Positions 809-44,066 of a stretch of 53,687 nt of DNA are shown here, one piece after another. The notes under the pieces were generated by a model that was not told the origin of the DNA, ran no database searches, and saw only the letters and a list, made by a program, of their open reading frames with translations. Both the position numbers and the translations under genes were made by a program. Origin of the DNA: Chloroflexota bacterium (GTDB lineage Bacteria; Chloroflexota; UBA11872; VXOZ01); assembly GCA_022824225.1 (NCBI GenBank), contig JAJEAH010000014.1, positions 1 to 53,687 of the forward strand, written 5' to 3'. The number at the start of each line of letters is the position of its first letter. Position 1 is the first letter of the stretch.

Positions 809-1999
809 ATGGCAGCCACGGCAGACGCGCTATCGCCGCGCGACGCGATGTCGCCGCGCGAATACCGGCGGATTCACCGCAATCTCTTACGCAGCCGACG
901 CACCGCCGGCAGAGAACACGAACCGATACCCAAACACTATCTGCAATTAGCCGCGGAGGAGCTGGACCAACGCATCGCCGCGGTACGGCAGCAATTGGGC
1001 GAGCGCGTGCTCGTGCTCGGCCACCACTATCAACGCGACGAGGTCATCAAGTACGCTGACTTACGCGGGGATTCCTTTAAGTTGGCCACGTTTGCCGCCA
1101 CTCGGCGGGACGCCGAATACATCATCTTCTGCGGCGTGCACTTCATGGCCGAAAGCGCCGACATCCTCACGGACGAACACCAGTCGGTGATCCTGCCCAA
1201 TCCCACGGCAGGGTGCTCCATGGCCGACATGGCCGACATCGACGACATCGTGGAGTGCTGGGAGCAGCTCACCGGCGCGGCCGGCGAGTCCATTGTGCCC
1301 ATCACGTACATGAATTCCACCGCGGCCCTGAAGGCCTTCTGCGGCGCCCACGGCGGGATCGTGTGCACCTCCTCCAATGCCGCGGCCGTCTACGAGTGGG
1401 CCATGGCGCGCGGCGAGAAGATTCTCTTCTTCCCGGACCAGCATCTGGGACGCAACACCGGTCTGAAATTCGGCATTGCGACTGATGAGATGGTGGTATG
1501 GGACCCGGCGGAACCGGTGCTCGGCGGCAATACCGCGGCGGACGTGCAAAAAGCTAAGGTCATTCTCTGGAAAGGCTGGTGCTCGGTGCACACGCGCTTC
1601 ACCGTGAAACAGGTGGAGTTTGCCCGCCGCCAGCAGCCGGACGTGAACGTGATCGTCCATCCCGAGTGCCCCATGGAGGTGGTGCAGGCGGCCGACTACA
1701 ACGGCTCCACCGAGTTCATCCTGAAGACCATCACGGAGGCCCCCGCCGGCACGGCCTGGTCGGTGGGCACCGAAATCAACATGGTCAACCGCATGGCCGC
1801 CGAAAACCCCGACAAGCAAATCTCCTGCCTGGACCCCATCGTCTGCCCCTGCTCCACTATGTACCGCATCCATCCCGCCTACGTCGCCTGGGTGATGGAA
1901 GACCTGCTGGAAGGCAAGGTCACGAACCAGGTGAGCGTGGACGCCGAAGTGGCGCACTGGGCGGTCGTATCCCTGGAGCGCATGCTCACCGTGCATTAG
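809..1999 (+). CDS. nadA: Quinolinate synthase NadA
   Basis: Quinolinate synthase condenses iminoaspartate with dihydroxyacetone phosphate in de novo NAD synthesis and carries a [4Fe-4S] cluster. The 396-aa protein shows the family motifs VLGHHYQRDEV (about 69-79), FCGVHFMAESADIL (about 107-120), GCSMADMA, HPECPMEV and CPCSTMYRIHP. Likely cluster ligands are Cys108, Cys258 and one of Cys346/Cys348. The ATG at 809 is preferred over the upstream in-frame start at 752 because conserved sequence begins well after it and AGG-rich sequence precedes it. The protein is of the longer NadA type, with an N-terminal extension of about 45 residues. No nadB or nadC lies nearby, so the gene stands alone here. 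Confidence 0.96.
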   Translation: MAATADALSPRDAMSPREYRRIHRNLLRSRRTAGREHEPIPKHYLQLAAEELDQRIAAVRQQLGERVLVLGHHYQRDEVIKYADLRGDSFKLATFAATRRDAEYIIFCGVHFMAESADILTDEHQSVILPNPTAGCSMADMADIDDIVECWEQLTGAAGESIVPITYMNSTAALKAFCGAHGGIVCTSSNAAAVYEWAMARGEKILFFPDQHLGRNTGLKFGIATDEMVVWDPAEPVLGGNTAADVQKAKVILWKGWCSVHTRFTVKQVEFARRQQPDVNVIVHPECPMEVVQAADYNGSTEFILKTITEAPAGTAWSVGTEINMVNRMAAENPDKQISCLDPIVCPCSTMYRIHPAYVAWVMEDLLEGKVTNQVSVDAEVAHWAVVSLERMLTVH

Positions 2000-34764: not shown

Positions 34765-35904
34765 CGCGGTACCTCGGGCGTAGCCATTTGGGCGCCGAGC
34801 GCAAGGGACCAGAGTCTCGGTGGGCCTGGGGTTCGCCAAAGGAACAACGTAGCGCGGGGGCTTGTCCCCAATAGTGTCGCACCAAAGTTGCAAGCCAGGG
34901 TCAGATTGCCGCTACCCGGACTGTCAGCCACGGTAGGGGCACAACAATTCGTACGCAATGGTGTAGGGGCACGACATGTCGTGCCCCTACACCATCGAGA
35001 CAACGTTGCCATCGCGTAAGCAAGGGAGTTCCGCCGCATTTGACCCAGTCTGAACCTACTGCGACAACATTGGGGCCTGTCCTCCGCTCCGGCAGCAATA
35101 GATCAAAGGACTCTCTGACGTCGCCTTGCAGTTTCATCGTGTCCGTGGCGAATGCCTCTGCATTGCGAAAGAGTAGAAGCTCTCCCGCACTTGCGGGAAT
35201 GACCGTTGGCTAGACGCGGCGGGAATCGTAGCGCGGGGGCTTGTCCCCCGCTCCGGCGGCAAGGGACGCAAGAGTTCTCCGGCTTGGCTTTCCGTCCCGT
35301 CCCGGTTTCGGTGAATGCTCTTGCGTTGCGTAAGAGAAGATGGATTCCCGCTTTCGCGGGAATGACGGACTGTCAGACGCAGCGCCAGGGGCTTGGCCCC
35401 CGCCCTTGGTGAGATTCAGGCACACAAACAGCCCAATGCCGACGAGCCGACTCTCGCTCTTGCTGTAATTCAGCCTATCCAATTACCCAGTGCCGACGAG
35501 CCAACTCTCGCTCTTGGTGAGAGGCAGCCTATCCAATAGCCTAACGCTGGCGAGCCAACACTTTTGAGTGCAGCAAACGTGACGCTGGACACTGTATATT
35601 CCGGTACCGCAGGTTTGTAACCTGCGGCCTCCGCGCCCAGGCCGCTCACCGGTCCTGCTGCTCAGGCGCTCATCCCCTTCCGCTTCCCTTGCGCCCTCAA
35701 AGCCCTTCCTTACATCCCTCTTGCCATCCGCTGGCTAACCGCGCAGGACACCTCACGCACTCGCGCTTGCCGTAGCAGGTTTGTAACCTGCAGGCGTCGG
35801 CTGCATAGTGTGCATAGACATCGCCACTCTCCGCTCGCAGTGTCCGACAATTGCACGTCGCACCACGCGGTAGTGTCCAACTCGAATGGGAAAGGCAACG
35901 CACC
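34765..35904. repeat. Repeat-rich intergenic block (1.1 kb), no gene seen
   Basis: Four repeat families are visible. The TAGGGGCACGAC palindrome is at 34963-34990. GCGGGGGCTTGTCCCC hairpins are near 34851 and 35228. The inverted ATTCCCGC-TTTC-GCGGGAAT hairpin is at 35344-35363. About 2.4 copies of a 54-bp unit (GCCGACGAGCC-ACTCTCGCTCTTG) run from about 35432 to 35560. GCAGGTTTGTAACCTGC palindromes occur near 35607 and 35776. No open frame looks like a protein. Confidence 0.75.
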
Positions 35905-36819
35905 GTGAAGATCTACATCTTTGCCGACCAGGAAGGCGTGGCCGGCGTCTTCAACCGGCGCGAAGGCTACCTGAACGCCAGTGAGTACGCCACCATGGAA
36001 CTCGCGGCCATCTGCGAGGCGCTCCTGGACAACGGCGTCAGCGAGATCGTCCTGAACACCATTCACATCATGGAGTACCACAAGCTGCCGAAGCCGGTGC
36101 AGGTTATTCACGGCCTGCCCCGGCACGACATGTTCACCGAACTCCTGGACGAGAGCTTCGCCGCCGCCATGCTGGTCGGCTTTCACGAGATGGCCGGCAA
36201 CCGCGAGAAAGGCTGCTGGCGCCACTCTATTCTTCCGCACCCAATTACCCGCGCGTATAGCGCGGTCGAAGGCATCTGGCTGAACGATCTGCTGGTCGGG
36301 GAGATTGGCATCTTTGTGGCGTTCGCCGGCATTCACAACGTGCCCGCGGTGCTCAACACCGGTGACTACTGGGCCTGCCTGGAAGCGGCAGACCTGGTGC
36401 CCGGCATCGAGACCGTGGCCGTGAAGAAGGGCACCAGCCACTTCAGCGCCATTTCCATGACGCCGCAAGCCGCGGCGGAGGCGGCGGCTGAAGGAGCGGT
36501 GCGGGCGCTGGCCAAGATTGGCACGGTCAAGCCCCTAATACTAGAAGGCCCGGTGACGCTCAAGGTGAAGTACACGTTCCCCGAGCGCGCCACTGACGCC
36601 ATGAGCGCCGTAGCCAACGCCTTTCGCATCGACGAACACACCGTCGCCGCCACCTACCCCAGCATCGCGGCGGTCCGCGACAACCTGGGCAACCTGCGCG
36701 CGCCGGAAATGGAAATCTACGCCAAGGACTCCGGCTTCAACCAAACCACCGGCTTCTTCACCCGCACCGGCGGCGAACCATATGAGAGCACGCCGACGTA
36801 TCCACCGCCGTCGAGGTAG
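35905..36819 (+). CDS. M55 family peptidase (DppA-like D-aminopeptidase)
   Basis: A 304-aa zinc aminopeptidase of the DppA type, which releases D-amino acids from short peptides. It starts MKIYIFADQEGVAGV, where Asp8 and Glu10 match the first zinc ligands of DppA. A further ligand His is in LVGFHEMAGN (near 104), and VAFAGIHNVPAVLNTGD and SAISMTPQAAAEA are typical later blocks. The start is GTG 35905, because the family begins exactly at this KIYI strand; the in-frame ATG at 35851 would place 18 extra residues before it. It could recycle D-Ala-containing wall peptides. An RHH gene follows 23 nt downstream. Confidence 0.88.
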   Translation: MKIYIFADQEGVAGVFNRREGYLNASEYATMELAAICEALLDNGVSEIVLNTIHIMEYHKLPKPVQVIHGLPRHDMFTELLDESFAAAMLVGFHEMAGNREKGCWRHSILPHPITRAYSAVEGIWLNDLLVGEIGIFVAFAGIHNVPAVLNTGDYWACLEAADLVPGIETVAVKKGTSHFSAISMTPQAAAEAAAEGAVRALAKIGTVKPLILEGPVTLKVKYTFPERATDAMSAVANAFRIDEHTVAATYPSIAAVRDNLGNLRAPEMEIYAKDSGFNQTTGFFTRTGGEPYESTPTYPPPSR

Positions 36820-36842: not shown

Positions 36843-37070
36843 ATGACGACAAAACGCGAGGAGTTCTCCGCCCAAGCTGACGCAAAACTTCTGGCTGCCC
36901 TGCGGGCGCTTGCCAAGCAGGACGGCCGAGACTTTCAAGAAGTACTTGAGGATGCCATGCGCGTCTACGTAGCTGCGCGCGGTCAGAGTGAGCCTCGGAA
37001 AGCCGTGATGGAGCATTTCCAGGCAAGCCTTGAGAAGAATCGCAAACTTGCGGAGTTGCTTGCGCAGTAA
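36843..37070 (+). CDS. Small ribbon-helix-helix-like protein
   Basis: A 75-aa protein with the pattern FSAQADAKLLAALRALAKQDGRDFQEVLEDAMRVYVAAR (8-46). This fits a ribbon-helix-helix DNA-binding fold: a short strand, then two helices. A charged C-terminal tail (MEHFQASLEKNRKLAELLAQ) could bind a partner, as in antitoxins. No toxin ORF follows, so it is either an orphan antidote or a stand-alone regulator, perhaps of the M55 gene just upstream. The family call is from pattern only. Confidence 0.6.
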   Translation: MTTKREEFSAQADAKLLAALRALAKQDGRDFQEVLEDAMRVYVAARGQSEPRKAVMEHFQASLEKNRKLAELLAQ

Positions 37071-37100: not shown

Positions 37101-37140
37101 TCAAAAGGAGCGCCCGGTGCTCGTGCACCGCAAGCGCTCC
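37101..37140 (-). terminator. Rho-independent terminator of the minus-strand RNA
   Basis: On the minus strand GGAGCGC pairs with GCGCTCC, with an inner GGTGC/GCACC helix around ACGA, followed by TTTTGATT. Read on the plus strand the tail is only CTTTAAA, so it could also serve the RHH gene more weakly. Confidence 0.7.
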
Positions 37141-37173
37141 CTTTAAATTCCCTAAGGCCGCTCCGTGGTCTCG

Positions 37174-37221
37174 TTACCGAGACCTCACGGAGGCGGCCCT
37201 GGATTTACAACTAACATCCAT
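37174..37221 (-). CDS. Possible 15-aa leader peptide within the small RNA
   Basis: ATG at 37221 sits 8 nt after AGGAGG (37235-37230), an ideal ribosome binding site. The ORF reads MDVSCKSRAASVRSR and stops with TAA in the loop of the hairpin. It shows no run of a single regulatory amino acid beyond three Arg and four Ser. It may be a leader peptide, a toxic peptide or merely part of a ribosome-binding RNA. Confidence 0.4.
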   Translation of the reverse strand: MDVSCKSRAASVRSR

Positions 37222-37249
37222 GGGCATCACCTCCTTTCTCTTGCCAGAC

Positions 37250-37279
37250 ATCATACTACACACACTGACACGCTGTCTA
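37250..37279 (-). promoter_or_regulatory. Predicted sigma-70 promoter of the minus-strand RNA
   Basis: On the minus strand TAGACA (37279-37274) and TATGAT (37255-37250) are 18 nt apart, each one base from consensus. Transcription would start near 37243, giving a very short 5' leader before the extended ribosome binding site. Confidence 0.55.
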
Positions 37280-37351: not shown

Positions 37352-38317
37352 TTGAAGCGCTTTTGCCTCCTCATCCGCATCGTCGCGCTCTGCTTGGCCG
37401 TATCGTGCGCGCAGGCCGCGCCTGCTGCTGTTCCCCCAACCGCCACTCCGGCAACAGCCGCTGCCGTCCCCACGCCGACGCAGATTCCGGGCCGCGACGA
37501 TCTCTACCAGTTGCATGACGTGCCGGAGCACCTGGCCTATATCCGGTGGGGGTGGATTCACGGCCAAGATTCGGAGGGCAAAAGGTTCGATGAGCTTGAG
37601 GAGTTGGTGTTTGAGTTCACGATCCACAACGACGTGCAGCCCATAGGGGGCGGCTACGGATACTACTTGATGCTTGGCCATAGCAGAATCTCCGGTGTGC
37701 CCTTCTATTTTGGCGTGCAGACTGACGTGAAATACCCTGACGTTGCGCTATCGTACGGCAAGGGTCTGATCTTCTCCCGCTGGGACACCCGTGACCTTGC
37801 CAACACCCTCTACGCGCAAGAGGACGGCTGGACGGAGTCGTCCGATCACGAGGGAGACTTCATCGGCGTGCGGCGTTCGTATGCCTGGGGGCCGGGCGAC
37901 TATCGCGTGCGGCTGGCGCCTGACGAATCTGCGCCGCAGGACCCTGACGGGGCGTGGTTTGGGGTGTGGATCACGGACCTCAGCAACGCTGAAACTACCT
38001 GGATCGGCTCGCTCAAGTTTCCGCTCCAGGATGGTAGAGCCGTGATACAGACACCCGTGTACACCACCATGGAGTTTTACGCGGTGATTCCCGGTTCGCA
38101 ATTCAGGCCGATCGACATGCCAACGTGGCGCGTCTCCCTCCGGCGGCCGGTCGGTGACGGCGTAACGGCGCACTGGGGTCGCACCGGCTACTCTGCGCTC
38201 GAGGGCAAAATCACGAATGCCGACATTCGCTACGACGTGACCAAGGACATCGTGCACATTCAGGCAGGCGGGGCAACGGAGCGCCGTACCGAGCCGGGCG
38301 ACGTCGAGTTTTGGTAG
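37352..38317 (+). CDS. Predicted secreted lipoprotein, uncharacterised
   Basis: A 321-aa protein with an N-terminal hydrophobic segment and lipobox-like LAVSC (Cys19), then a Pro/Thr/Ala-rich linker (about 22-45). The mature part is beta-rich, with YYLMLGHSRISGVPFYFGVQTDV, GLIFSRWDTRDLANT and GAWFGVWITDL. These recall DUF3472-type secreted domains, but I am not certain. The start is TTG 37352 with AAGGGG upstream; no ATG fits ahead of the signal sequence. It should be exposed on the outer face of the membrane. Function unknown. Confidence 0.6.
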   Translation: MKRFCLLIRIVALCLAVSCAQAAPAAVPPTATPATAAAVPTPTQIPGRDDLYQLHDVPEHLAYIRWGWIHGQDSEGKRFDELEELVFEFTIHNDVQPIGGGYGYYLMLGHSRISGVPFYFGVQTDVKYPDVALSYGKGLIFSRWDTRDLANTLYAQEDGWTESSDHEGDFIGVRRSYAWGPGDYRVRLAPDESAPQDPDGAWFGVWITDLSNAETTWIGSLKFPLQDGRAVIQTPVYTTMEFYAVIPGSQFRPIDMPTWRVSLRRPVGDGVTAHWGRTGYSALEGKITNADIRYDVTKDIVHIQAGGATERRTEPGDVEFW

Positions 38318-43849: not shown

Positions 43850-43922
43850 GCCCACATAGCTCAGTCGGTAGAGCGCGATCTTGGTAAGATCGAGGTCACC
43901 GGTTCAATTCCGGTTGTGGGCT
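43850..43922 (+). tRNA. tRNA-Thr (anticodon GGU)
   Basis: A 73-nt cloverleaf: acceptor GCCCACA with TGTGGGC, D-arm GCTC/GAGC, anticodon stem CGATC/GATCG with loop TTGGTAA (anticodon GGT), T-arm ACCGG/CCGGT with loop TTCAATT, and discriminator T. CCA is not encoded. It is directly upstream of tuf, a linkage known from tufB operons in other bacteria. Confidence 0.95.
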
Positions 43923-44066
43923 CCGGCAGTGCCGGCGGCGAGCGCGTTGGCGTTGCGCGCCAAATACGTTGGCGTGAAACGCCAAAGACGCTGGCGTGAA
44001 ACGCCAAAGATGCTGGCAGTGCCAAAGAAGCTGGCGCTTTAAGCGCGTAGCGGGAATATCCCGCGC
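43923..44066 (+). repeat. Row of small hairpins between tRNA-Thr and tuf
   Basis: At least six short hairpins follow the tRNA: CCGGCAGTGCCGG; TTGGCG/CGCCAA twice with loops TTGCG and TGAAA; TGGCG-TGAAA-CGCCA; TGGCA/TGCCA; GGCGCTTTAAGCGC; and CGGGAATATCCCG. The central ones form 22-bp direct repeats (TTGGCGTGAAACGCCAA plus AGAC). They lie in the transcribed spacer before tuf. Confidence 0.7.

Follow-up and report, generated by a model that had tools for sequence, protein, structure and literature searches.

Known small RNAs with a short reading frame

Leader-peptide attenuators of the trpL type carry a short ORF with a Shine-Dalgarno (SD) sequence, mutually exclusive hairpins and a terminator. 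In the type I toxin mRNAs hok and aapA1, the structure is metastable and the SD is transiently sequestered during transcription. Dual-function sRNAs of the SgrS type are small RNAs with a translated short ORF. Another such RNA, ncl0160, was first seen in Synechocystis 6803, is also present in Nostoc 7120 and is widespread in cyanobacteria, with 83 homologs reported from a search of 89 genomes (PMC4734099). It is a stand-alone, terminated transcript with a short, strongly conserved ORF for a predicted peptide of 23-25 aa and a ribosome-binding site that is always present (PMC4734099).

The element described here is real, conserved and largely uncharacterised, a predicted small mRNA found in a 53,687-nucleotide stretch of DNA from a Chloroflexota bacterium ("the window" is that whole stretch). 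It shares the traits of the trpL-type attenuators (an SD-preceded short ORF, hairpins that exclude each other, a terminator), but there is no regulated downstream gene, and the alternative helix hides the SD and forms no antiterminator. As in hok and aapA1, the SD is computed to be transiently hidden during transcription; in contrast to them, the peptide is polar and variable and the element is single-copy throughout several lineages. It is, as in the SgrS type, a small RNA with a short ORF, although here ORF and structure overlap.

The cyanobacterial form of the element is very probably ncl0160, a match made by the published description and not by letters. The cyanobacterial relatives found here have mostly 23-25 codons (some have 17) and share with Chloroflexales the upstream CCGNNNAGG, the SD and SSKRMG. 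A promoter and a Rho-independent terminator can be read in the window sequence, from which a stand-alone transcript is predicted. The window element differs in having a 15-codon ORF with another peptide, in lacking CCGNNNAGG, and in an SD-hiding pairing that is strong in the window and weak in cyanobacteria. A literature search returned no paper linking ncl0160 with Chloroflexota and none besides PMC4734099 naming ncl0160; a string search with the peptide and the core returned no match. What is new here is the extension to Chloroflexota and a competing pairing over the ribosome site. Divergence among the Chloroflexota is large enough for covariation and exposes structure undescribed for the cyanobacterial RNA. 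A widely conserved cyanobacterial transcript without known function thereby becomes a testable switch.

Layout of the element

The predicted stand-alone RNA is about 140 bases long and is encoded on the minus strand; read from the sequence, the whole unit including the promoter spans 37279-37103. A sequence-only reading had described it as a promoter (TAGACA-18-TATGAT) followed by a leader with 14 nt of 16S complementarity, a well-spaced ATG opening a 15-codon ORF, a TAA in the loop of a long paired hairpin, and a GC terminator hairpin with TTTT. Each of these is present, the promoter at 37279-37250. The features, with the neighbouring genes, are as follows.

37279-37274, minus strand: -35 box TAGACA of the promoter, with an 18-nt spacer to the -10 box
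37255-37250, minus strand: -10 box TATGAT of the promoter; the two boxes match the consensus at 10 of 12 positions
37239-37226, minus strand: extended SD AGAAAGGAGGTGAT, a perfect complement of the genome's own 16S 3' end
37234-37228 and 37225-37222, minus strand: segment 1 (GGAGGTG and GCCC), the SD/start side of the pairing
37221-37219, minus strand: ATG, 8 nt 3' of GGAGG
37221-37174, minus strand: 15-codon ORF MDVSCKSRAASVRSR and its TAA (37176-37174)
37199-37189, minus strand: segment 2 (GGGC and CGCCTCC), within the ORF, partner of segment 1 (SD hidden) or of segment 3
about 37199-37178, minus strand: 5' arm of hairpin 1, made of the ORF's second half (from the fold, duplex and switch computations)
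about 37173-37154, minus strand: 3' arm of hairpin 1 (segment 3), beginning directly 3' of the stop codon
about 37142-37107, minus strand: hairpin of the intrinsic terminator, GGAGCGC...GGGCGCTCC (from the fold), with TTTT at 37106-37103
35851-36819, plus strand: D-aminopeptidase gene
36843-37070, plus strand: 75-aa ORF
37352-38317, plus strand: lipoprotein-like ORF

Sequence and fold together place the TAA in the apical loop of hairpin 1. The minus-strand fold has a z-score of -6.65, with none of 200 shuffles as good. The plus strand folds equally (z -6.94), which inverted repeats would lead one to expect. Hairpin 1 and the terminator stem are separate structures that do not compete.

The 14-nt complementarity of AGAAAGGAGGTGAT to the genome's own 16S end, CTGGATCACCTCCTTTCT, is exact; that end reads ATCACCTCCTTTCT in the genome, and the 16S terminates ...CTGGATCACCTCCTTTCTAGGG. 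Chance had been raised as an explanation of the match, but the match is not common: outside rRNA the genome has no second copy of it. Of the three occurrences of the 11-mer AAGGAGGTGAT in 3.37 Mb, two are antisense to 16S ends and the third lies in this element, which has the genome's only perfect anti-16S SD outside rRNA. Such a sequence could belong to an RNA acting in trans or titrating 30S subunits, with the extended SD, or the anti-SD-like arm in the ORF, directed at ribosomes or at other mRNAs. That the 11-mer has no other perfect copy outside rRNA, that the arm carries CCTCC in the window genus and that the RNA is stand-alone and terminated would all suit this idea. It is nonetheless improbable: a single gene copy would titrate 30S subunits only if the RNA were extremely abundant, and the arm lies inside the ORF.

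Conservation in the genus

All six genomes of the genus carry the element, the other five at 88-91% identity, and a search with the exact core finds it a single time in each. We take the genus to be sponge Chloroflexi and the element to be the sponge-Chloroflexi branch of its family. In the genus alignment identity extends from the -35 box to the T-run of the terminator, with a dip in the promoter spacer; the boxes GACAG and GTATGAT are invariant in the six genomes and the spacer varies. What is conserved is thus the predicted transcript and its promoter. Within the genus the peptide does not vary.

The loop of hairpin 1 had also been described as GTAA of the GNRA type. This holds for the window, but CTAA in one sister genome and GTTAC in another rule it out as a conserved feature. 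The in-loop stop itself has been lost in one sister genome and a few relatives. In that sister genome (G003; element at 1523-1624, plus strand) GGTTACC replaces GGTAACG in the loop, so that the stop is gone and the loop is a complete palindrome. Two other loci, L014 and L027, likewise have no in-loop stop. A weak DNA match in another genome, G044, was rejected as a relative since it is a chance match inside a longer ORF.

Distribution of the family

A search for homologues, the check proposed with the sequence-only reading, found related elements in the genus, in other Chloroflexota and in Cyanobacteria. The 18-mer core AAGGAGGTGATGCCCATG has one match each in 43 of 400 Chloroflexota genomes, and the reversed control pattern has none. 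Each of the 43 loci opens a short ORF, nearly always of 13-17 codons, and in most of them the stop lies in the loop of a hairpin that is followed by a terminator. When 84,980 genomes were scanned, the matches listed included many cyanobacteria, filamentous and other, with the 23-codon ORF MIESSKRMGHQVAVSRLCAGAVL, as well as Chloroflexota; most of the listed matches from other phyla looked unrelated.

A covariance model of the core (R1) was trained on 55 rows from both phyla, one of them the window. It matches 83 of 400 Chloroflexota and 71 of 194 cyanobacterial genomes, nearly always once each. The window, itself within the training set, scores 36.9 bits (E 8e-7 in its own genome), above the level of about 28 bits seen in negative phyla. 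In negative phyla 0 of 148, 1 of 200 and 3 of 119 genomes gave matches, all weak and none above 27.5 bits, so that matches of 22-28 bits need individual reading. For example, three matches of group f24 in that range were read, and all have the architecture of the element. Matches from Bacillota and Pseudomonadota that were read proved to be ordinary genes and were rejected as members, as was a second match in one genome (L226 in G173), which has no ORF. Two diverged copies, L044 and L221 on contigs C4 and C7 of G311, make this the sole convincing two-copy genome among those read.

The model also matches 6 of 114 genomes from the phylum to which a Bdellovibrionales MAG belongs, and about five of these read as real. 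The loci L206 and L276-L279 in that phylum have the same architecture and lack the CCGNNNAGG motif; their presence may reflect horizontal transfer, misbinning or deep ancestry. A diverged member, MDSSSASRHALSMCIHLVPIA, was seen around position 1517 (plus strand) at L295 in G016, a genome from another family of the window's class. At 20 bits it lies far below the model threshold, and the true distribution is therefore wider than counted.

The transcription signals extend to the relatives. Sites resembling a -10 box occur in 55 of 62 Chloroflexota relatives, where 35.7 would be expected, and terminator-like sites in 51 of 62, the latter a plain count with no shuffle control. Searched against Rfam 15, neither the element nor its relatives reached the gathering score of any family; there were weak leader-like matches below the cut-off only. 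The sole Rfam match within the window is a tRNA-Thr (GGT) at 43850-43924.

A short ORF that stops inside a hairpin, with a terminator after it, would also describe a neighbouring gene's attenuator or leader, whether still in use or a relic, and an attenuator that had lost its target had been among the first suggestions. The neighbours speak against it. As had been noted from the sequence, no gene follows on the minus strand: the next window genes are all on the plus strand, opposite to the element. A crude gene call puts 26 of the downstream neighbours in Chloroflexota in convergent orientation and 22 on the same strand, and across all groups 55 unrelated families are represented among 80 downstream neighbours. 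Because the neighbouring genes vary in this way, a leader left behind by a lost gene is not a supported reading. The relatives are, moreover, mostly single-copy and stand-alone in two phyla, and with no competition between terminator and hairpin 1 there is no antiterminator. An attenuator of either kind is accordingly very unlikely.

Two competing pairings of the ORF arm

Duplex computation shows that the part of the hairpin lying in the ORF can pair with either of two partners, the downstream arm or the SD/start region; the sequence-only reading had missed the pairing with the SD. In the window the SD:ORF duplex is computed at -21.0 kcal/mol (p 0.005 against shuffled ORFs, and 0.005-0.01 over the window genus) and the duplex of the ORF with the downstream arm at -39.2 kcal/mol, with 0 of 200 shuffles as good. 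Covariation had been named as a check on the hairpins; it was found for both of these pairings, by shuffle and slide controls that leave relatedness in.

Among 62 Chloroflexota loci, the pairing of the SD/start region with the ORF beats that of shuffled ORFs at p ≤ 0.05 in 95% (median z -3.7). In 39 aligned sequences 98.2% of cells are paired, compared with 31-54% when one side is slid. Two-sided changes are seen at positions 10-16, e.g., GCCC/GGGC, GCTA/TAGC, GTGCAG/CTGCAC and CCCGGAA/TTCCGGG. The variation in the SD:ORF pairing is mostly from G-C to G-U, since both the 16S complementarity and the search leave segment 1 little room to change; the segment-1 core served to find most members, and its invariance is thus partly a product of that selection.

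The pairing of the ORF with the downstream arm reaches p ≤ 0.05 in 82% of loci. In Chloroflexota 94.3% of its cells are paired, and there are 36 double changes compared with 9.6 in shuffles; the covariation score is 0.385 against 0.223 in shuffles, a comparison in which relatedness is left uncorrected. The helix between segments 2 and 3 mostly ends no more than a few bases from the stop codon, and in most loci that codon sits at the apex or close to it. In cyanobacteria the second ORF half also pairs with a downstream arm, one ending in GACCC, and 17 of 39 pairs have double changes. The SD:ORF pairing is weak there (3% at p 0.05), and the switch may be a feature of Chloroflexota.

Evidence for translation

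The distance from the ATG to the arm is 19, 22, 25 (or 43) in 53 of the 62 relatives and 21, 24, 30 or 33 in the other nine. Read from these spacings, indels between the ATG and segment 2 preserve the frame within two classes. The sequence GGGCATCACC is translated as GIT or WAS depending on the frame class. The pN/pS ratio is 0.46 in Chloroflexota and 0.54 in cyanobacteria (p 0.006 each).

Much of this would be expected of a tiny-peptide gene, one that exists to make its 15-aa peptide and whose structure merely tunes translation: the frame survives indels, the ratios fall below one, a single peptide is found across the genus, and the 23-25 aa peptide predicted for ncl0160 was judged likely to be translated (PMC4734099). 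We regard this reading as doubtful. The peptides diverge strongly between families, several residues are dictated by pairing (those of GGGCATCACC, for example), and the purifying selection is mild. The initial suggestions of a ribosome-binding RNA and of a tiny-peptide gene both survive, and they probably refer to the same thing, a short RNA that is translated and whose fold controls access to its ribosome site.

A putative ribosome-gated switch

The main reading, to which we give a probability of roughly 55%, is that of a self-contained small mRNA in which the ORF arm would switch between hiding the SD and pairing with the downstream arm, gated by free 30S subunits. In the nascent RNA the ORF arm would lie on the SD and hide it; once the downstream arm has been made, the ORF arm could move to it and leave the SD accessible. 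In silico, the SD of the window is open in 1% of the RNA ending at the stop codon and in about 55% of the finished RNA. In 39 relatives the SD:ORF form is computed to be nearly cost-free in the truncated RNA, and the two states differ by a median of 2 kcal/mol (36 of the 39 within 6). Openness of the SD in these relatives is no higher in the longer RNA (median 0.32) than in the nascent RNA (0.42). These computations support a bistable arrangement of the two pairings; the predicted direction of switching is clear solely in the window and in some families.

With the two states so close in energy, binding of a free 30S subunit to the SD would tip the switch; the SD:16S duplex is computed at about -17 to -22 kcal/mol. 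Translation would then have to wait for an almost finished RNA and would depend on free 30S subunits. The ribosome would open hairpin 1 and halt at its apex, and the likely output would be altered stability or pairing of the RNA, set by its translation status. The peptide may be secondary, as families differ in its sequence and the pairing dictates part of it.

A computed nascent structure that hides the SD would also fit a type I toxin mRNA with metastable hiding of the kind found in hok or aapA1. The peptides, however, are short, have a mostly polar or basic character and lack a membrane stretch (in the window MDVSCKSRAASVRSR, as read, has no hydrophobic stretch), and the element is mostly single-copy and widely conserved. 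A toxin is accordingly most improbable.

Homology between Chloroflexota and Cyanobacteria

Since the covariance model was trained on both phyla, its matches alone are no proof of homology. A seed-independent motif, CC[GA]NNNAGG at about -28, was found in 41 of 62 Chloroflexota loci (1.0 expected) and in 23 of 30 cyanobacterial loci (0.2 expected). Alignment of cyanobacterial to Chloroflexota ORFs is significant in part of the lineages (L016, L028, L002) but fails to reach significance in the rest, so that homology rests mainly on the combined order of motifs and on the upstream motif. It is possible that CC[GA]NNNAGG forms a mini-hairpin with a GNNNA loop just 5' of the SD. The motif lies about 28 nt 5' of the ATG in L016, L039, L055, L077 and others, and it is absent from the window genus.

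A broader and more tentative reading, which we would hold with much less assurance than the switch in the window, is of an ancient ribosome-sensing RNA of Cyanobacteria, Chloroflexota and a Bdellovibrionales group. It would be a mostly single-copy mRNA whose anti-16S SD and anti-SD arm in the ORF report free 30S subunits, or translation status, by way of its own translation. Should it indeed sense how many ribosomes are available, a stand-alone sensor of translation that is conserved across phyla would be an uncommon case.

The cyanobacterial loci (L055, L076, L104 and others) often lie between a psbD copy and a gene for a pterin dehydratase or an OprB-type porin, products named by reading.
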